A stretch of DNA of 64,000 nt from Henriciella sp. (lineage in GTDB: Bacteria > Pseudomonadota > Alphaproteobacteria > Caulobacterales > Hyphomonadaceae), in assembly GCF_029936995.1 (NCBI RefSeq), contig NZ_JAPYRE010000005.1, positions 124,001 to 188,000 of the forward strand, written 5' to 3'. The position numbers and the translations under genes are program-made. Below, piece by piece: positions 49,653-58,127 of this stretch. The notes beneath the pieces were generated by a model. The model was not told the DNA's origin. It did not search any database and was given only the letters and a program-made list of their open reading frames with translations. Position 1 is the stretch's first letter. Each line of letters starts with the position of its first letter.

Positions 49653-50987
49653 ATGGAATTTGTGTCGACGCTCGAAGCCTTCTGGGAACAGGTCGAGACT
49701 GTTTTTACCACAGGCTTCCTGGGCCAGCCGATCGGGCGCGGTGTCATGGCACTGGCGATCCTTGTCGTGGCTTTCCTGCTGCGTGGGCTGGTGGCCAAGG
49801 CGATCGCGGCCACGATCGGAAAGATGGCCGGGCGCACGAAGACAGACTTTGACGACCAGGTCGTTTTCGCGCTGAAGAAGCCGCTTACACTGTTGCCGAT
49901 TGCAGCCGGTGTGTTCTTTGCCGCCCAGGCGCTCGGCGCGTCGGGTGAAGTCGATGTCTTTATCGCCAATCTGACACGCTCGATCGTGATCCTGGCCATT
50001 TTCTGGGGCATGTTCAGGGTCATCGGGCCGCTTCTGGACTTGCTGAAGGGCCTCAAGAGCGTGATGGGGGACACGTTCCTCGACTGGATGAAGCGTATCA
50101 TCAAGGCGATTGTCTTTTTTGTCGGGGGCGCAGCGATCCTGGATGTCTGGGGAGTTCCGGTCCTGCCTTTCCTGGCCTCGCTGTCGCTCCTGTCTGTTGC
50201 CGTCGCGCTTGGCGCACAGGACCTGTTCAAGAACCTGATTGCAGGGATGACGATTATCGGTGAACGCCGGCTGGCCAAGGGCGACTGGATCTTTGTCGAC
50301 AATGTCGTTGAGGGGTTCGTCGAGGATGTCAGCTTCCGCTCGACCACGGTACGCCGTTTCGACAAGGCGCCGGTCTATGTGCCGAACGCGAAACTTGCGG
50401 ACAATCCACTGACCAACTTCTCGCGTATGACGCACCGCCGGATCTACTGGCAGATCGGGCTTGAGTACCGCACGACTTCGGAGCAGCTCACCACGATCCG
50501 CAAGGCGATCGAGGATTATATAACGTCGAATGATGACTTCGCTCCGGCCGCCGAGGTGTCGACACTGGTGCATATCGACGAGTTCTCCGACTCGGCTGTG
50601 ACCATCATGGTCTACTGTTTCACCAAGACGATCACTTGGGGCGAGTGGCTGGCCATCAAGGAACAGCTGGCCTTCTTCGTGAAAAAGACCGTCGAGGCGG
50701 AAGGGGCGAGCTTCGCCTTCCCGAGCCGCTCGCTTTATTTCGAGAAACTGCCGGATGGCTTCGGTCCGGAAGCGTTCAAGCCGCCCCATGATGATGACGA
50801 CGAGGAGTCTGAAGAAGGTGGCGACACGCAGGCTGATGACGTCGAGGAGGAGATTCCCGACAAGCATGTCAGCAGGAGTACCAAGGCTTCAAGGCGCAGC
50901 GGCGCAAAGCACGGTAAGGGACCTCACCCGCATGGCCGTGGTGTAGAAGGCGAAGGCGGTGATGTCGGTGGCGATGAGGGGGAGTAG
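49653..50987 (+). CDS. mechanosensitive ion channel, MscS family
   Basis: A 444-residue channel with about four N-terminal membrane segments. The pore helix LSLLSVAVALGAQDLFKNLIAG (about 180-200, GxxxG-type packing) is followed by the beta domain GDWIFVDNVVEGFVEDVSFRS and VYVPNAKLADNPLTNFSR. That is the MscS signature. After the C-terminal domain (to about 375) there is a 70-residue low-complexity tail: DDDDEESEEGGDTQADDVEEE, then a basic SRSTKASRRSGAKHGKGP, then Gly/Asp. GAGGGG lies about eight bases before ATG 49653. It is convergent with ctrA and probably releases solutes on hypo-osmotic shock. Confidence 0.92.
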   Translation: MEFVSTLEAFWEQVETVFTTGFLGQPIGRGVMALAILVVAFLLRGLVAKAIAATIGKMAGRTKTDFDDQVVFALKKPLTLLPIAAGVFFAAQALGASGEVDVFIANLTRSIVILAIFWGMFRVIGPLLDLLKGLKSVMGDTFLDWMKRIIKAIVFFVGGAAILDVWGVPVLPFLASLSLLSVAVALGAQDLFKNLIAGMTIIGERRLAKGDWIFVDNVVEGFVEDVSFRSTTVRRFDKAPVYVPNAKLADNPLTNFSRMTHRRIYWQIGLEYRTTSEQLTTIRKAIEDYITSNDDFAPAAEVSTLVHIDEFSDSAVTIMVYCFTKTITWGEWLAIKEQLAFFVKKTVEAEGASFAFPSRSLYFEKLPDGFGPEAFKPPHDDDDEESEEGGDTQADDVEEEIPDKHVSRSTKASRRSGAKHGKGPHPHGRGVEGEGGDVGGDEGE

Positions 50988-51052
50988 CGTCCGCGTGTAT
51001 GAGGGGGCGCCTGACTGCCGGACAGCGGCAGGACATGCAGCCCAAAAGAAAA

Positions 51053-51072
51053 CCCCGGTACATGGACCGGGG
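51053..51072 (-). terminator. intrinsic terminator of ctrA
   Basis: CCCCGGT (51053-51059) pairs with ACCGGGG (51066-51072) around ACATGG. On the minus strand a T-rich tail (TTTTCTTTT) follows, 30 bases beyond the ctrA stop. Confidence 0.75.
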
Positions 51073-51104
51073 CTTCCTGGGTGTTCTGATGTCGAGAAGA
51101 GGGA

Positions 51105-51830
51105 TCAGGCCGCGACGAGCGCCTCGTCCTTGTTCTTCTTCGGGTCACGCAGGACATAGCCGCGGCCCCAGACTGTCTCGATGTAATGCTCACCCTGCGG
51201 ATTGTCCGCCGTGGCTGTCGCCTTGGCGAGCTTCTTGCGGAGCTTACAGATGAAGACGTCGATGATCTTCAGTTCCGGCTCGTCCATGCCGCCATAAAGG
51301 TGGTTGAGGAACATTTCCTTTGTCAGCGTCGTGCCCTTGCGCAGCGAGAGCAGCTCGAACATCTGGTATTCCTTGCCAGTCAGGTGAACGCGGTCGCCTT
51401 CGACCTCGACCGTCTTGGCATCCAGGTTGACCAGAATGTCGCCGGTGCGGATGACGCTCTCAGCGTGGCCCTTGGACCGGCGAACGATTGCCGTGATCCG
51501 GGCAATCAGCTCGTCCTTGTTAAAGGGCTTGGTTAGGTAATCGTCTGCACCATAACCGAGTGTCTTAACCTTTGCTTCAATATCGGGATTGCCCGACAGG
51601 ATCAGGACCGGCGTATTGATACGGGCCATGCGAAGCTGCTTAAGGACGTCGTAACCGGAAATATCCGGCAGGGAGAGGTCGAGAATGATCAGGTCATACT
51701 CGTAGACCTTGCCCAGATCGACGCCTTCTTCACCGAGATCGGTGGTGTAGATATTGAACCCTGCAGCCTTGAGCATCAGCTCAATACTGCGGGCGACCGA
51801 GTTGTCGTCTTCAACCAGAAGAACTCTCAT
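51105..51830 (-). CDS. ctrA: cell-cycle response regulator CtrA
   Basis: Master OmpR-family regulator of cell cycle and motility genes in alphaproteobacteria. The 241-residue protein has the receiver [20 protein letters not shown] with phospho-acceptor Asp51 ([17 protein letters not shown]), Thr/Ser and Lys at the usual places, and the winged-helix [37 protein letters not shown] and [10 protein letters not shown]. The C-terminus ends in Ala-Ala, as in Caulobacter, where that end is the ClpXP degradation tag. Phosphorylation would be by CckA-ChpT, not in the window. A CtrA-box-like site lies 73-88 bases upstream, consistent with autoregulation. Confidence 0.97.
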
Positions 51831-51902
51831 GTGTGCGCTCCCGAATCACTCTAGCGACACCGTAGCCGCCCCATTAACCAATGTGAATCTACGAACCGTT
51901 CG

Positions 51903-51918
51903 TTACCAAGACTTTAAC
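51903..51918. promoter_or_regulatory. CtrA-box-like site upstream of ctrA
   Basis: TTAC-N7-TTAAC (51903-51906, 51914-51918) differs from the CtrA consensus TTAA-N7-TTAAC by one base. It sits 73-88 bases upstream of ctrA and 36 bases past the flhG stop, as expected for autoregulation of ctrA. Confidence 0.6.
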
Positions 51919-51953
51919 GTGGATAACTCAGCGGCTATTTTTGTTCATACCTC

Positions 51954-52805
51954 TTAATAATGTAGCTCCTCGCCGCGCCGGCGCGTGATAAGCGTCTGTG
52001 CGATGGCGATGGCATCCTTGACCGGCTGGGCCGAGGCATCTGTCGAAATCAGCGTGCGCTGGCTGCGAATGGCTTCGCGCACCTTTTCGTCCCGCATAAC
52101 GATACCCGCCAGCGGAGGCCGGAAACCGAGGAACTTCTTGCAGGCCATGGAAATGGCTTCATAGGTCTGCTGGCCGGTTGCGCGGGTCTGGGCCTGGTTG
52201 ATGATGATGCCCTGTTCGACTTCAGGCGCATAACCGCGCAGCACCTTGATGAAGGCGTAGCCATCGGTCATCGAAGACGGGTCATCGGTAATCACCATCA
52301 GGGCCTTGTCAGAAGCGCGAGCCAGTCTCATGCAGTTCGACTCGATTCCGGCACCGAGGTCCAGGACGACCTTGTCGTACTGGAGCGCAAGCGCGGAGAG
52401 GCCGGCTGCAAGGCGGGAGACCTCTTCCGTCGAGAGTTCTGCCAGTGCGCCTGAGCCGGAGCGGCCCGGCAGGACATCGAAACCACCCTGGCTGGCACCG
52501 CCATCGACATTGATGACGGCATCTTCAAGCTCGATCCAGCCTGCGATGACGGCCGCGAGGTCCGTCTCCGGCGCGATACCCAGCTGGACATCGACATTGG
52601 CGAGGCCAAGGTCGCCATCGACCAGCAACGTGCGTTGGCCTGCCTGCGCAAAGGCGCTGGCAAGCGTGATGGACATAAAGGTTTTACCGACCCCGCCCTT
52701 TCCGGACGCGACCGAGATGACCTGACCTGGTTCCACGCGCCGCCTTGGGGCCTTGCCCTGCGACCTGCGTGGCCGGTCAATGGATTTTGGGAGCATGAAG
52801 CTCAT
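51954..52805 (-). CDS. flhG: FlhG/MinD-like ATPase controlling flagellar number
   Basis: A 283-residue ParA/MinD-family ATPase. The deviant Walker A motif SGKGGVGKT (about 34-42) is intact, as are LLVDGDLGLANVDVQLG and VVLDLGAGIESN, and the end (ITRRRGEELHY) is basic/amphipathic, suitable for membrane contact. In polar-flagellated bacteria FlhG limits flagellar number and counteracts FlhF. ATG 52803-52805 has AAGGAG nine bases upstream inside the flhF end; the two genes are separated by one base. It ends 123 bases before ctrA. Confidence 0.88.
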   Translation of the reverse strand: MSFMLPKSIDRPRRSQGKAPRRRVEPGQVISVASGKGGVGKTFMSITLASAFAQAGQRTLLVDGDLGLANVDVQLGIAPETDLAAVIAGWIELEDAVINVDGGASQGGFDVLPGRSGSGALAELSTEEVSRLAAGLSALALQYDKVVLDLGAGIESNCMRLARASDKALMVITDDPSSMTDGYAFIKVLRGYAPEVEQGIIINQAQTRATGQQTYEAISMACKKFLGFRPPLAGIVMRDEKVREAIRSQRTLISTDASAQPVKDAIAIAQTLITRRRGEELHY

Positions 52806-52806
52806 C

Positions 52807-53817
52807 TCATGCAGCTCCTTTCAGCGCGACATCAGCTGGAGATTCTTCCAGCAGGATCCGAGATAGCCGTCCCGGAGCGGCCGGAATAAGTCCGCCTCCG
52901 ATAAACGGCGTGATGGCAAGATGCGAGAAGGCGAGACCAGCGCCTGACAGGGCCGCAACGACACCACCGCGGCGGCGTGTTACATCGAGTTTGGTTACGA
53001 TGGCCCGGCGCACGCCGACCTCGGCGAAGGCCCGGGCTGCTTCAGCCTGGTCTTCTGGGTGGCCTTCTGCCGACATGATGAGGACCGGTTCAGCGTCTAT
53101 GGCGTTGATCAGGTCCCCGAGGCTGGCCATGTCCTCCTCGTCATAGGGGACGATGGCCGGAAGATCGATAACACAGCGATGGCCGCCCCGGCGGGCATCA
53201 CGTAGCATGTTGAACAGGTCGTCTGGCGTTCTCGCCGTACGGACCTGACGTTGTTCGAGTTCGAGGTAGGCCGCCAGCTGCGCACCACCTGCTGTGGCAT
53301 CGAGATCAGCGGCGACTGGAAGTATCTGGGTTTTGGCAACCGCGGCGCGGCGCGTCATCTTGGCAGCTGTTGCTGTACGGCCATGACCGGGCGGGCCGAC
53401 AAGAAGAATGTCATGAGCGGGCAGGGGCGCGATCGGATCGCACGTGATCAGCGCGTCGAGGCCGGACGCCATGATTTCTGCCGGATCCTGCGTGCGCGCA
53501 CTGGCGGGCATACCCGCGTCAGCAACACGTTCGGCAAACCTTTGCGGTGCGCCATGCCAGGTCAGTGCATCGCGCACACGATTGCGCAACGGGTTGTCCT
53601 GAGGGCGTCCGGGGGCGGGCTGTCTGTTGTTAATACGGCTGAGGAAGCGTGGCTCGCTCGGAACCATGCCGCCTCCCAGCTTGTCAGTTGCCGCACGAAC
53701 TTCAACACCACCCGGGACTTCCCGCTCAGACAGGATGATGGCGTCGTCCCCCATCTCCGCGAAGATCATGGACTTGGCGGCCTCGAACGTCTCGGCTGCG
53801 AACATTTTCATGCGCAT
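52807..53817 (-). CDS. flhF: FlhF-like SRP-GTPase with degenerate nucleotide site
   Basis: A 336-residue relative of the flagellar placement GTPase FlhF. The N-terminus (MRMKMFAAETFEAAKSMIFA, then MGDDAIILSEREVPGGVEV) is the clear FlhF B-domain start. In the NG domain the P-loop is GPPGHGRTATAAK (141-153), with Arg147 in place of the essential Lys. The G3 motif is IDLPAIVPYD instead of DTAGR. G4 TKLD (275-278) and the GGG closing motif remain. It may bind nucleotide weakly or not at all. ATG at 53815-53817 has GGAG nine bases upstream. It precedes flhG by one base. Confidence 0.8.
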   Translation of the reverse strand: MRMKMFAAETFEAAKSMIFAEMGDDAIILSEREVPGGVEVRAATDKLGGGMVPSEPRFLSRINNRQPAPGRPQDNPLRNRVRDALTWHGAPQRFAERVADAGMPASARTQDPAEIMASGLDALITCDPIAPLPAHDILLVGPPGHGRTATAAKMTRRAAVAKTQILPVAADLDATAGGAQLAAYLELEQRQVRTARTPDDLFNMLRDARRGGHRCVIDLPAIVPYDEEDMASLGDLINAIDAEPVLIMSAEGHPEDQAEAARAFAEVGVRRAIVTKLDVTRRRGGVVAALSGAGLAFSHLAITPFIGGGLIPAAPGRLSRILLEESPADVALKGAA

Positions 53818-53957
53818 AGGCAAATCACTCCAGTTCCAGATTCGGAGCCTCGCGTGAAAAGGTTAACGAAATCTGTTAATCTATTAGGGAAACAGAAATT
53901 GCCTGTGAATGAATTGGGTTAATGCAGTCGGGGTCTGTTGCCCGGCTATGTGCGCGG

Positions 53958-54218
53958 TCAGGCGGCGCGTTTTTCGTCGACGATTTCAGACAGTTTGACC
54001 CCTAATTGCCCATCGGCGACGACGAGACGTCCACGGGCCATAAGGCGGTCTGATACATATATGTCGACCGGTTCGTTGGTGCGTTTTTCAAGCTCGACAA
54101 TTTCGCCATCGCCAAGCGCCATGAGTTCGTCCAGGGACATGCGTGCCTCGCCAAGCACGACATCAACACGGACGGGAACGTCCATGAGGCTGGATTGAAG
54201 TGCACGATTACCGGACAT
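53958..54218 (-). CDS. fliN: flagellar motor switch protein FliN
   Basis: An 86-residue SpoA/FliN-domain protein: LMDVPVRVDVVLGEARMSLDELM, then GDGEIVELEKRTNEPVDIYV and GQLGVKLSEIV. This is the C-ring component that binds FliM, and it interacts with FliH in export. It is short even for alphaproteobacteria (Caulobacter about 110 residues) because only the conserved C-terminal domain is encoded. GGAG lies six bases before ATG 54216-54218. fliM is not in the window. It follows the FliH-position gene after 96 bases. Confidence 0.9.
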   Translation of the reverse strand: MSGNRALQSSLMDVPVRVDVVLGEARMSLDELMALGDGEIVELEKRTNEPVDIYVSDRLMARGRLVVADGQLGVKLSEIVDEKRAA

Positions 54219-54314
54219 GCCTTACTCCACGATGCCGCTGGCGAATCAGTAGCCTCCTCCGGATTGGTTACCGAGGAATGAATGGCTGTCTGCTGGCGGG
54301 ATTGTCTGTGAGCG

Positions 54315-54680
54315 TCAGCTTTGGAAGAGATCGCCCTGTCCGTCAATGAGTTCAGCAGCAATATGGCGCACACGTTTCAGTGCGTCCTGTCTGGCATCAT
54401 CAGAAAGCGAAGCAGTTTCAAGGGTCTTTGCAAGCTCAACAATATGCCCAAGCGCGGTTTTGAGCCCGCTGGCTGAAGCGCTCATGGCGTCTGCATGGAG
54501 CTTCAGTTGCTCATCCTGAACAAGACTGGCTGTGCTGCTGCGTGTATCCTCGAGCAGCGCGGCAAGCTCTGCGATGCTGATCGAGATGCGGTCCTCATCG
54601 GCTGGCTGGACAGATTGCGGGGCTTCGAAATCGGCCCTGAACTCGAACGGCGTTACCGTTTTTGCAGCGCGTGCCGTCAT
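54315..54680 (-). CDS. short protein in the fliH/flbE position
   Basis: A 121-residue, helical, acidic protein (pattern such as ISISIAELAALLEDTRSSTA and LGHIVELAKTLETASLSDDA). It lies between fliG and fliN, where Caulobacter has FlbE, the FliH-like negative regulator of the FliI export ATPase. I see no clear FliH signature in it, and it is about half the usual size. Its start codon overlaps the fliG stop (ATGA), so it is translationally coupled. An assignment as FliH/FlbE rests on position, length of helix and context only. Confidence 0.6.
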   Translation of the reverse strand: MTARAAKTVTPFEFRADFEAPQSVQPADEDRISISIAELAALLEDTRSSTASLVQDEQLKLHADAMSASASGLKTALGHIVELAKTLETASLSDDARQDALKRVRHIAAELIDGQGDLFQS

Positions 54681-55624
54681 TCGATCAGCTCGTCTTCTTC
54701 ATCATTCGCGGCAAGGATTTCGCCACGCTTGGCAAGCCTGCGGGCAATGGCCGTGACCTCGTTACGGGCTTCAAGAATGGCCGAGCGCCGGACCGGGCCG
54801 AGACCGTCAATTTCAGAGCTCAACAGCTCACCGGCGCGCTTGGTCATGTTCCTGAGGAAAACCTGTCGAACGGGTGTCTTTGCACCCTTCAGGGCAATCG
54901 CCAGAACGCCCCGGTCAACGCTTGAGAGTATGGTTTGCACAGCGCCCGGATCGAGGGCGGAAAGGTCATCAAAGGTAAACATCAGGGCCCGGATGCGTGT
55001 CGCGCTTCCCGGTTCATCCCGGTCCAGCGCGGACATGAAACCCTGCTCCAGGCGGGGGTCCAGCCGATCGAAAATACGCGCGACATTTTCGGCACCTTCG
55101 CCGGATTGTTGCCCGCTGCGGCTGGACACGAGATCATTCATTGCCGCTTCAACGACTTTCAGGGCCTCACCGCGTACGCGGCCGAGATTCATCAGGCGCC
55201 GTAATGCCGTGGTTGCCAGCGGGCGAGGCATCAGCCGGACAACATGGGCTGCCGTTTCGGGCCCCAGGCGTGAAAGAATGACACCGACAAGCTGGGGATG
55301 TTCGTGTTCAATGAAGTTGGCGATGATCGCTGGGTCGAGCCTGGCCATCCGGCTCCAGACACTGATGCCTGAGTCCCCCTGACGGTCAGGGATACTTGTG
55401 AAGGCTTCGATGAGAGCGGCGGTGTCGCCACCTGGTCCGGATGCTGCGCCTGCTGGACCGTTCAACTCCATTGCAGTGCTCAACTGACTGGCTTCATCCG
55501 GCGAGAGTTCAGCCCAGACCGCCGAGGCAGAGGGGCCAAGGGCCTTCATCAAACGGGCCGCACGTTGTGTTCCAGGGCTGCTGGAGGGCAGTGGCGGGCT
55601 CATCTTGGTGGCGGGCAAGCTCAT
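54677..55624 (-). CDS. fliG: flagellar motor switch protein FliG
   Basis: The rotor protein transmitting torque from the stator. A 315-residue protein with FliG-N (RAARLMKALGPSASAVWAEL and on), FliG-M with EHPQ (108-111) and GVILSRLGPETAAHVV, and FliG-C with the torque helix MFTFDDLSALDPGAVQTILS and IALKGAKTPVRQVFLRNMTKRAG. Torque charges Lys (IALKG), Arg (KRAG) and Arg (GPVR) are present. The residues matching E. coli Asp288/Asp289 are Ser270/Glu271. The length is slightly below normal (about 330-340). Both ends overlap neighbours (ATGA) in a tight operon. Confidence 0.93.
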   Translation of the reverse strand: MSLPATKMSPPLPSSSPGTQRAARLMKALGPSASAVWAELSPDEASQLSTAMELNGPAGAASGPGGDTAALIEAFTSIPDRQGDSGISVWSRMARLDPAIIANFIEHEHPQLVGVILSRLGPETAAHVVRLMPRPLATTALRRLMNLGRVRGEALKVVEAAMNDLVSSRSGQQSGEGAENVARIFDRLDPRLEQGFMSALDRDEPGSATRIRALMFTFDDLSALDPGAVQTILSSVDRGVLAIALKGAKTPVRQVFLRNMTKRAGELLSSEIDGLGPVRRSAILEARNEVTAIARRLAKRGEILAANDEEDELIE

Positions 55625-56322
55625 CCTGTCTCTCCTTCATTCATCCAGCCGCGAAGTATGCGGGCGGTATCCTGCGGGTGTTCCCGGGCAATGCGCTGGG
55701 CTTCGCCATGAGAGTCCGGCTGCGCGTGCTGTGGTTCTGCCGGCACGGCATGCAGATAAGGCGTGCCCCCTTGGCCTGGCCTTGAAGCCTGTGGGGTCTG
55801 TTCGGGCGCCGGCTCTGAAACGGGGGCACGGTCAGGCCCGGCCTGACGCCTTGGCGCGAAGGCCAGAAAGCCGAGCAGACCGCAGATACCAGCCAGGAGG
55901 CCGAGTTCCATGAAATCGTTTCTCTGCAGGCCACCCGCTGTGCCGGGGGCGAATGCCATGTGTTCGATGCGAAGGCTGTCAGTGGGCGGATCAAACCCTG
56001 TCGCGGCAGTGAGGATTGTCTCGATGCGGGATGTTGTCGCGACACTGAGGTGTTCGCCTGTCTGCGGCGTATCGGCAAGGATCAGGAGGTGGCGATTGCC
56101 GTCTTCATCCGTATGCCCGGCAAGACGGAATGCGTTCTGGCCGAGGACAGGCTCAAGCAGTGATTGAAGCTGGCTGATTTCGGGGGAGGGGCTGGCCGGC
56201 GCGGTTGGCGTCTCGGTGAGGCGTGTGTGTCCACGCCATGCCAGCAGGCACGCGGCAAGACCAAGCGCAATCAGCGCCACCTGCCGCGTGCCTTTAGGCA
56301 TATTGGAGTTCATTGCTGACAT
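55621..56322 (-). CDS. fliF: minimal FliF-like M-ring protein (RBM3 and FliG-binding tail only)
   Basis: A 233-residue protein in the fliF position (normal FliF about 550). TM1 (about 14-29) is followed by a single periplasmic domain of about 48-125: ISQLQSLLEPVLGQNAFRL and SRIETILTAATGFDPPTDSL match the two halves of RBM3. TM2 (about 137-155), a Pro/Gln-rich cytosolic part and GEAQRIAREHPQDTARILRGW (about 206-226), the FliG-binding tail pattern, complete it. RBM1, RBM2 and the beta-collar insertion are missing. AGAGG seven bases before ATG 56320-56322 sets the start, and no upstream FliF remnant exists before sciP. It overlaps fliG (ATGA). Confidence 0.7.
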   Translation of the reverse strand: MSAMNSNMPKGTRQVALIALGLAACLLAWRGHTRLTETPTAPASPSPEISQLQSLLEPVLGQNAFRLAGHTDEDGNRHLLILADTPQTGEHLSVATTSRIETILTAATGFDPPTDSLRIEHMAFAPGTAGGLQRNDFMELGLLAGICGLLGFLAFAPRRQAGPDRAPVSEPAPEQTPQASRPGQGGTPYLHAVPAEPQHAQPDSHGEAQRIAREHPQDTARILRGWMNEGETG

Positions 56323-56391
56323 CAGCCTGCCTCTCAGCTGTACCACGTGTGAAATGCACGGGACGTTCAGCTGGGAATTTGGCGTGTCAGC

Positions 56392-56407
56392 GTAAACGGC
56401 GCTTTAA
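56392..56407. promoter_or_regulatory. CtrA-box-like site upstream of the short fliF
   Basis: On the minus strand TTAA-N7-TTTAC (8 of 9 consensus bases TTAA-N7-TTAAC) lies 70-85 bases upstream of the ATG. In Caulobacter the fliF operon is a CtrA-activated class II operon, so this is the expected place. No sigma-54 promoter was found. Confidence 0.5.
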
Positions 56408-56454
56408 CGATACCGCACGGGCGCCACTGATGGAGTTCCAGATGCCGTAACTGT

Positions 56455-56745
56455 TTAAGAGGCGCGATACTGCTGCAGGCGGGTGGCGCGCAGGCCTTTC
56501 GTGCCGTGCTCGTCGAGAAGCTGGGCCCAGCCATTCAGCTCTTCTTCGCTAAGCGCGTAGCGCTCGCATGCCTCACTCCGGGAAAGAAGTCCGCCGCGGA
56601 CGGCCGCGACCACTTCAGCCTTGCGGCGCGTGACCCAGCGGCTGATACCGGGGGGAGGAAGATCCTCCCGCGTCATTGGGCGACCATCCGGGCCCTTTAC
56701 ACTCAACGTCTTCGCATTCTGCTGCGCCATGAGATTCACCATCAT
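56455..56745 (-). CDS. sciP: CtrA inhibitor protein SciP (DUF1153)
   Basis: A small HTH protein (96 residues) with the SciP core: KGPDGRPMTREDLPPPGISR, RRKAEVVAAVRGGLLSRSEA, CERYALSEEELNGW and HGTKGLRATRLQQYR. In Caulobacter SciP blocks CtrA-RNA polymerase activation at swarmer-specific genes, among them flagellar ones. It lies immediately upstream of the fliF operon as in Caulobacter, 132 bases before the short fliF start. ATG 56743-56745 is used; in-frame ATGs at 56742 and 56730 are alternatives. A weaker CtrA-like sequence lies at 56814-56828. Confidence 0.93.
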   Translation of the reverse strand: MMVNLMAQQNAKTLSVKGPDGRPMTREDLPPPGISRWVTRRKAEVVAAVRGGLLSRSEACERYALSEEELNGWAQLLDEHGTKGLRATRLQQYRAS

Positions 56746-56895
56746 CTATATTTTTCTTCACGGTAGAAACCGGAGACGCTTTCTGCGCCCAGAAGTGGTG
56801 TATCCCAGGCTTCTTAAATCAGTTTTCAGCAAAGCCTGTGAGTTTTCTTGAAAATTAAAAATGGCTCTGGCGGTCCCGTTAAGGCTGTTACACGA

Positions 56896-56937
56896 ACCTG
56901 TCCCGTCATGGATCACCTGTCCTGAAACCGGACAGGT
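56896..56937. repeat. ACCTGTCC repeat cluster between sciP and mnmA
   Basis: ACCTGTCC occurs at 56896-56903 and 56915-56922 as direct repeats, and inverted as GGACAGGT at 56930-56937. The last two form an 8-base-pair hairpin around TGAAACC, followed on the plus strand by a T-rich stretch. It lies just past the mnmA stop. It could be the mnmA terminator (weak on that strand) or a multi-site operator upstream of sciP. Confidence 0.45.
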
Positions 56938-56948
56938 TTATCCATTTT

Positions 56949-58127
56949 TTAGGCCGGAATCCGCTCATCTGCCGGAATTGTGGAGGCAATGAAGCCGCCG
57001 CCCATTACACGAGTTTCACATGAAAAATCGTACAGGACGCAGGCTTGCCCCTTTGCCACCCCTTCTTCCGGGATCGAGAAGTAAACAGCGGGCTGGTTTT
57101 CGTGCCAGCCGAGCTTCGCGGGAAGCGGCTCACGGGTCGACCGGACACGCGCGAGGACGGGCCGGGCCTCATTGCAGGCAGCTTCGAGTGTGCCGTCCCC
57201 CAGCCAGTTCAATTCTTCCATGGTGAGCCCGGCGGTCAGCAGGGCTTCACGTGGACCGACAATCACCCGGCGGGTGGCTGCGTCGATCTTCACCACGAAG
57301 AGGGGTTCGCCGGTAGCAATGCCCAAACCGCGGCGCTGGCCGATCGTATAGTGGATCACGCCCTTGTGCTCGCCGAGCACGCGTCCGTCGATATGCACGA
57401 TCTCACCCCCGCGGCCGGCACGGGGGCGTAGCTTTCGCACGACATCGGCATAAGAGCCCTGCGGGACGAAGCAGATGTCCTGACTGTCGGGCTTGGCCGC
57501 GACGGGCAGGTTGTACTTGTCGGCCAGTTCGCGCACTTCCGTCTTGGGCAGGTTGCCAAGCGGGAAGCGCAGAAAGCCCAGCTGCTCACGCGTCGTGGCG
57601 AACAGGAAGTAGGACTGGTCGCGGGAGGGATCGGCCGCGCGATGAAGTTCCGCGCCGTCTTCTCCATCCGCCCGGCGGATATAGTGACCGGTCGCCAGGC
57701 AATCGGCACCGAGTTCCTTTGCCGTGGCCAGGAGGTCCTTGAACTTCACTGTCTGATTGCAGCGGATACAGGGGATGGGTGTCGAGCCGGTCAGATAGGT
57801 GTCGGCAAAGTCTTCCATGACCTGTTCACGGAAGCGGCTTTCATAATCCAGCACATAGTGTGGGATACCGACCTGGTCGGCGACATTGCGGGCGTCATGG
57901 ATGTCCTGTCCGGCACAGCAGGCCCCCTTCTTCTCGATAGCTGCGCCATGGTCATAGAGCTGCAGCGTGATGCCAACGACATCATAGCCTTCCTCGGCCA
58001 GCATCGCTGCCACGACAGAGCTGTCCACGCCGCCGGACATGGCGGCAACCACACGGGTTTCGGATGGGGGCTTGGCAAATCCAAGCGAATTGAGCCCGCC
58101 AGTACTGGCGGTCGTCAGATCGGTCAT
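56949..58127 (-). CDS. mnmA: tRNA-specific 2-thiouridylase MnmA
   Basis: Transfers sulfur to U34 of tRNA-Lys, -Glu and -Gln. A 392-residue protein with ATP-binding [16 protein letters not shown] (about 29-44), the catalytic cysteines in [10 protein letters not shown] and [22 protein letters not shown], and the C-terminal beta domain ([17 protein letters not shown]). GGAGG precedes ATG 58125-58127. A transcript entering sciP from here cannot be excluded, as the intervening hairpin has no T tail on this strand. Confidence 0.96.

Follow-up and report, generated by a model that had tools for sequence, protein, structure and literature searches.

Introduction

In the flagellum, FliF forms the founding ring that surrounds the export gate. 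Placement of FliG-FliF by FlhF and FlhG has been shown in another bacterium (PMC11236974), and Hyphomonas neptunium has been described as having a motility island (HNE_0239-HNE_0276) and as losing motility in a fliL mutant (PMC7200025). Outside flagella, the generic transporters related to MotAB are described as devoid of flagellar features such as the torque-generating interface (PMC12505986). A 64,000-nucleotide stretch of the genome of a marine bacterium, Henriciella sp. (GCF_029936995.1, contig NZ_JAPYRE010000005.1, positions 124,001 to 188,000; hereafter the window) carries in the fliF position a gene for a protein of 233 amino acids (aa), called mini-FliF here, followed by a second-copy fliG, fliG2. 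Comparison of this locus across the family suggests that the ancestral rotor and stator probably persisted after the flagellum itself was replaced, and that FliF shrank to a tether holding FliG at the membrane. No description of mini-FliF or of a retained rotor-stator set in this family was found among the titles and abstract openings of the open-access papers that the literature searches listed. Proteins of the retained set are marked 2 and those of the replacement flagellum 1.

A shortened FliF in the fliF slot

The mini-fliF gene is intact, adjoins fliG in a flagellar operon and encodes the following elements.

55621..56322, minus strand: mini-fliF, 233 aa, in the fliF slot, its stop overlapping the fliG2 start (ATGA)
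56215..56295, minus strand: first transmembrane helix (TM1), residues 10-36, from AlphaFold2 secondary structure
55948..56196, minus strand: core of the third ring-building motif (RBM3) without the beta-collar, residues 43-125, from a structural match to FliF 239-438 and a profile match
55858..55923, minus strand: second transmembrane helix (TM2), residues 134-155, from AlphaFold2 secondary structure and alignment with the canonical FliF TM2 region
55636..55713, minus strand: FliG-binding-like helical tail, residues 204-229, from profile alignments and AlphaFold2 secondary structure

Profile homology to the C-terminal half of FliF is collinear through RBM3 core, TM2 and tail. The RBM3 fold is found by both profile and structural match, and the FliG-binding tail is recognized by sequence only (profile E 2.5e-4, probability 43%), with P216 and W226 invariant in 27 sequences (alignment A1). 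RBM1 and RBM2 (Pfam YscJ_FliF) gave no match in the window protein up to E 10, and YscJ_FliF was not among the 12 families matched at E up to 0.1 by any of 48 mini-FliF members (alignment A3), of which the commonest weak Pfam match was YscJ_FliF_C (8/48, best E 0.0022). The beta-collar insertion was not found in the alignment, which skips FliF residues 270-406, and only five residues lie between strands 65-71 and 77-84 of the AlphaFold2 model. The canonical FliF comparison set numbered 24, two shortened frames (L091 and L101) being left out. A plain Foldseek search with the model ranked KH domains first and returned nothing at E <= 0.001. A sub-cutoff match of the window protein to Pfam DUF7269 (E 1.9e-4) was put down to chance, being present in one of 48 relatives, and a second mini-FliF search match in G027 was dropped since this 609-aa frame resembles a dehydrogenase-complex E2 protein.

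A preliminary description of the window had proposed a gene of about 233 residues with TM1, one RBM3-like domain, TM2 and a FliG-binding-like tail, and profiles, structural match and synteny confirm it. Its descent from FliF by reduction to one RBM3-like domain is likewise borne out by the profiles and the RBM3 fold, the N-terminal YscJ_FliF remaining unmatched. The frameshift or concealed longer gene that would have undone this proposal is ruled out by the presence of the short gene in the same slot in 47 of 48 named loci, which were collected with a FliN2 profile, include Henriciella and Hyphomonas among others, and in some cases end at contig ends.

Genome G030 carries in its fliF slot a gene of just 126 aa (L115:4005-4385) with apparently two membrane segments and a FliG-binding-like tail but no RBM3. 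This gene points to tethering as the core job of mini-FliF.

A probable replacement flagellum elsewhere and distribution of the retained set

The window genome (3.40 Mb, 20 contigs, 100% complete) holds a single full FliF of 515 aa with RBM1-3 domains by profile search, on contig C10, in agreement with the earlier suggestion that a full FliF might lie elsewhere. The flagellar cluster around it contains fliN, fliG, motB, fliM and motA (Pfam) and flhA; further genes there are putatively fliH, fliP, fliE, fliQ, fliR and flhB. Whereas FliF and FlhA each occur once in the genome, FliG, FliN, FliM, MotA and MotB are each present twice. The retained motor set, which is the larger point, is mostly encoded outside the window, with FliM2 on C3, MotA2 on C9 and MotB2 on C14. 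An export gate and a full membrane and supramembrane (MS) ring of the mini-FliF set's own were not found in the genome, the sole FliF and FlhA both lying in the C10 cluster.

The family was surveyed in 105 genomes of ten genera (g1-g10). By search, mini-FliF occurs in 71 of them, comprising 71/78 in g1, g2, g4, g6 and g9 and 0/27 in g3, g5, g7, g8 and g10, while FliG_C was found in 100/105, YscJ_FliF in 90/105 and FlhA in 92/105. Full FliF stands alongside mini-FliF in 63 of the 71. Neither FliF nor FlhA was found in 13 of the 105 genomes by family searches for FliF, FlhA, FliG, FliM/N, MotA and MotB, in which rod, hook and flagellin were not searched for. Mini-FliF is retained in eight of these 13 (seven by search, G002 by synteny at E 1.2e-6), and no mini-FliF was found in G001, G013, G023 and G031. 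FliG2 is present in nine of the 13, always together with FliN2, FliM2 and MotA2, and in seven of these nine MotB2 was found as well. MotA2 was present in all 15 examined genomes with FliG2.

The clearest cases are three related but distinct bins, G021, G026 and G028 (100, 95 and 99% complete), in which searches found no FliF, FlhA, FliG1, FliM1, FliN1, MotA1 or MotB1; Hyphomonas (G061) and the genera g2 and g9 provide further FliF/FlhA-less cases. With an assembly in 590 contigs and a FliG1-type match, G023 is probably an incomplete flagellate. In G013 (L243), sciP, mini-fliF, fliG2 and flbE2 are jointly gone between mnmA and fliN2, and fliN2, flhF, flhG and the ctrA-like gene stay. More than one FlhA match was obtained in G079, G081, G098 and G099, with a second FliF match in G079, G081 and G098; these extra matches may represent two flagellar systems in genera without mini-FliF.

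Motor residues and selection

Motor residues are numbered as in E. coli K-12, and their roles follow PMC6079164. Among 62 distinct FliG2 sequences, a set that includes nine from FliF/FlhA-less genomes, R281 and an acidic residue 289 are conserved in 62, K264 and a basic residue 297 in 61, and an acidic residue 288 in 43; within the nine, R281 and acidic 289 are kept in 9/9 and K264 and basic 297 in 8/9. MotA2 retains E98 in 16/16 loci, R/K90 in 15/16 and both channel prolines in 16/16, and MotB2 retains D32 and seven positions of an OmpA-like motif in 14/14, these MotB counts omitting L269, a weak second match in G100. The OmpA-like motif is peptidoglycan-binding. The retained set consequently holds FliG, FliM and FliN with stator-contact charges, together with MotA and MotB bearing the channel aspartate, the prolines and the OmpA-like domain.

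The FliG1 of the replacement flagellum (L009:17373-18518 and six other loci) is short of conserved stator-contact charges, with K264 in 1/7, acidic 289 in 3/7 and basic 297 in 0/7; R281 is kept in 7/7.

Ratios of nonsynonymous to synonymous substitution (dN/dS) among G021, G026 and G028, which are rough since synonymous sites are near saturation and 10/30 values were not computable for that reason, were 0.03-0.04 for FlhG, 0.06-0.08 for FlhF, 0.08-0.15 for MotA2 (two pairs), 0.13-0.19 for MotB2, 0.21 for FliG2 (one pair) and 0.21-0.39 for FlbE2. A comparison of G061 with G073 (dN/dS 0.10-0.32) was set aside because a close relative of G073, G068, has FlhA.

Ancestry and gene neighbourhood

The operon containing mini-fliF runs in the order sciP, mini-fliF, fliG2, flbE2, fliN2, flhF, flhG and then a ctrA-like gene, with the following components.

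56455..56745, minus strand: sciP (CtrA inhibitor), upstream neighbour, 128.5 bits (cutoff 100), in 48/48 named loci
56393..56407, strand not assigned: CtrA-box-like site with one mismatch between sciP and mini-fliF, by motif match
54677..55624, minus strand: fliG2, 315 aa, FliG of the ancestral type, its N domain shortened and its torque helix conserved
54315..54680, minus strand: flbE2, FlbE/FliH-like, 121 aa, covering columns 11-86 of 213 of canonical FlbE and without its C-terminal part
53958..54218, minus strand: fliN2, 86 aa, scoring above cutoff for the NCBIfam fliN domain
52807..53823, minus strand: flhF, GTPase of the signal recognition particle type, NCBIfam FlhF 71.4 bits, below its cutoff
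51954..52805, minus strand: flhG, matched only at family level as a MinD-type ATPase, its name presumed from position
51105..51830, minus strand: response regulator, downstream neighbour, presumed ctrA-like from sequence likeness, in 29/48 named loci, some of which end at contig ends

Across the 48 named loci, sciP, fliG2, flbE2 and fliN2 are each found in 48 and mini-fliF in 47, followed by flhF in 32, flhG in 31 and ctrA in 29; the nearest named relative of the window FliN2 is that of H. aquimarina (88%).

An order pieced together from five genomes of genera free of mini-FliF reads fliF-fliG-flbE-fliN-flbD-flhA-flhF-flhG, with sciP upstream in two; flbE and flbD are putative there, and the picking of open reading frames hid some genes, such as fliG in G077, which the FliG_C search locates in that position. 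Mini-fliF occupies the fliF place of this order, and flbD and flhA are gone from the operon. On the evidence of homology and gene order, mini-FliF is a shortened descendant of the ancestral Caulobacterales fliF.

FliG2 is likewise of ancestral descent. In a tree of 65 FliG sequences (222 columns, T. maritima outgroup), FliG2 (ultrafast bootstrap 95) joins ancestral FliG (88, moderate), and FliG1 stands apart from both (bootstrap 100). The tree takes 25 of the 53 FliG2 from outside the nine FliF/FlhA-less genomes; seven loci with partial or duplicate FliG (L117, L126-L130 and L155) are left out of the FliG set, and the structure-prediction alignment A4 comprises 29 of 47 FliG2 loci and the window. 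The FliF/FlhA-less genomes are scattered within the FliG2 part of the tree; therefore there was more than one origin of the FliF/FlhA-less state or more than one gain of the new flagellum.

The other parts also trace to canonical counterparts. FliM2 can be aligned with canonical FliM (E 3e-11 over 289 columns), and EIxxLL is conserved in 14/14 sequences, a set that omits L229 (G003). The similarity of FlbE2 is to the N-terminal part of canonical FlbE (E 7.3e-6 over columns 11-86 of 213). A DLF-like motif ends both proteins by eye, the profile match there not being significant, and FlbE2 is without the C-terminal domain that lies in between. From established roles, the lost portions would fall on parts expected to serve export. 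A dehydrogenase-like gene adjoins motB in 12/14 MotB2 loci and 3/5 canonical loci, and MotA2 loci have three neighbours in common with one of four canonical motA loci and none with the other three, so that MotB2 (and, in one comparison, MotA2) occupies the ancestral locus.

Further genes recur near these parts. A conserved protein of about 175 aa without Pfam or NCBIfam match (L204:9408-9929, on C9 of the window genome) follows motA2 in 16/16 derived loci and was not found in the four canonical motA loci; it is a candidate partner of MotA2. A putative flbT gene lies near fliM2 in 12/15 derived loci (L011, L224-L231 and L240-L242), eight of them from FliF/FlhA-less genomes. Four of five canonical genomes hold an extra short FliN-like protein in frames of 85-101 aa (G033:C1:646858, G077:C1:920721, G080:C16:779594 and G100:C43:36405).

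The operon (51105-56745) is flanked by sciP and the ctrA-like gene, regulators in one cell-cycle pathway. The window has six such CtrA-box-like sites (2.16 expected; six reached in 2/100 shuffles), and the site upstream of mini-fliF fits cell-cycle control. No sigma-70-like promoter was found in 50900-57000 (1.8 expected).

Interpretation

The reading judged probable, in which the old motor was kept without its flagellum, would unfold as follows. In the Henriciella/Hyphomonas lineage the flagellum would have been swapped for a different one with its own FliF, FliG, FliM, FliN, MotA and MotB. Of the old machinery, full fliF and flhA would have been lost, and the rotor (FliG2, FliM2, FliN2 and part of FlbE) and stator (MotA2 and MotB2) kept. 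FliF would have been trimmed to a tie between FliG and the membrane, consisting of two membrane helices, the RBM3 core and the FliG-binding tail. FlhF and FlhG would probably place the FliG2-mini-FliF complex, FliM2 and FliN2 would complete a membrane-tethered switch ring, and a MotA2B2 channel anchored to peptidoglycan would contact FliG2 through conserved residue pairs. With no rod, the output would not be a propeller; at a guess it may be sensing of wall or surface contact, relayed through FliM2 and a CheY-like protein. Assembly into one complex, torque from ion flow and a sensory output are parts of this picture that we infer. The stronger version, a working flagellum-derived rotary motor without rod, hook, filament or export gate, in which MotA2B2 drives a mini-FliF-tethered FliG2-FliM2-FliN2 ring for sensing or envelope work, is proposed tentatively, at somewhat less than even confidence.

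Several observations weigh against retention of a motor, beginning with the scope of the searches that defined the FliF/FlhA-less genomes. The tie between MotA2B2 and FliG2 is drawn from co-retention and matched residues alone. All nine FliF/FlhA-less genomes with FliG2 are metagenome bins, and an empty flagellar site was not seen in the FliF/FlhA-less genomes. MotB2 gave no match in G030 and G088, and G031 has FliM2, MotA2 and MotB2 with no FliG or mini-FliF detected. Residue 288 of FliG2 is acidic in just 4/9 FliF/FlhA-less genomes, MotA2 does not keep E150 (nor do four canonical relatives), the Pfam FliM domain was not detected in the two FliM2 scanned, which are too diverged, and mini-FliF evolves fast (dN/dS 0.37-0.49 among G021, G026 and G028, near saturation).

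The alternative that survives best, though unlikely, is a static polar scaffold, in which mini-FliF, FliG2, FliM2, FliN2, FlhF and FlhG make up a platform that does not rotate and serves to mark or organize a pole, and MotA2B2 is a separate ion-driven machine kept by chance. Of ten genes compared, dN/dS is lowest for FlhF and FlhG, save one FliN2 pair in the same range, G013 keeps FliN2, FlhF and FlhG after the loss of sciP, mini-fliF, fliG2 and flbE2, and G031 keeps MotA2B2 without detected FliG2, all of which a scaffold would accommodate; however, the matched charges kept by the torque helix of FliG2 and the loop of MotA2 would be needless in it, and MotA2 accompanies FliG2 in every examined genome.

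Less probable still is an accessory role, in which flagellated species use the old rotor and stator parts within the new motor or next to it and the FliF-less genomes are incomplete or recently decaying. Such a role would agree with full FliF in 63/71 mini-FliF genomes, with the bin origin of the FliF-less genomes keeping FliG2, and with G073 (no FliF/FlhA) having a close relative, G068, with FlhA; yet G021, G026 and G028 have none of the new-flagellum markers tested and keep the old motor genes at low dN/dS, and G061 and the cases in g2 and g9 extend the pattern.

An RBM3-only M-ring of the cell's own flagellum, a reading raised in the preliminary description that draws on the RBM3 fold and the FliG-binding-like tail, is not supported and hardly credible because the single full FliF (RBM1-3) and single FlhA sit with export genes in another cluster with its own FliG, because mini-FliF persists where neither was found, and because G030 appears to manage without RBM3. 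The preliminary description therefore held for descent, reduction and a full FliF elsewhere, and was not supported for an M-ring around the export gate.

Under the preferred reading of a retained rotor and stator, mini-FliF looks like a FliG tether, and rotor and stator persist where the machine that they are known to drive was not found. If this is true, the flagellar motor is a module separable from export and filament, structural studies gain a natural minimal rotor, and it becomes testable what use bacteria make of a motor that turns no propeller.

Comparison with known systems

Like FliF of Salmonella and Vibrio, mini-FliF has collinear RBM3 core, TM2 and C-terminal FliG-binding tail, two membrane helices and a gene that precedes fliG; unlike it, mini-FliF is without RBM1, RBM2 and beta-collar, has 233 aa rather than about 515-600, and persists in genomes without a detected export gate (FlhA). 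With the Caulobacterales flagellar motor the retained set has in common gene order or neighbours for several parts, homologous proteins, and torque-contact and channel residues. It differs in FlbE minus its C-terminal part, a shortened FliG N domain, a reduced fliF and an operon without flbD and flhA, in a MotB2 of about 226-245 aa versus about 300 in canonical relatives, and in FliG, MotA and MotB scores below the NCBIfam equivalog cutoffs.

A hat-shaped inner-membrane complex of Hyphomonas neptunium and other bacteria (PMC9380563) is also a non-flagellar membrane structure in this family; its authors, however, tie it to the flagellar export system, it occurs also in E. coli and Bacillus, and its periplasmic part is not FliF. 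It was considered as an explanation and set aside. ExbB, TolQ, AglR and Zorya are likewise MotAB-related channel machines without a flagellum (PMC12505986), whereas MotA2 has a full-length match to the model for flagellar MotA (279.9 bits against a cutoff of 303.8) and is kept with FliG, FliM and FliN. The remnant in Lysobacter enzymogenes (PMC9927559), another non-flagellated bacterium with part of the flagellar gene set, offers the mirror image: there fliG, fliM, motA and motB are lost, and the export system is, according to its authors, still functional.
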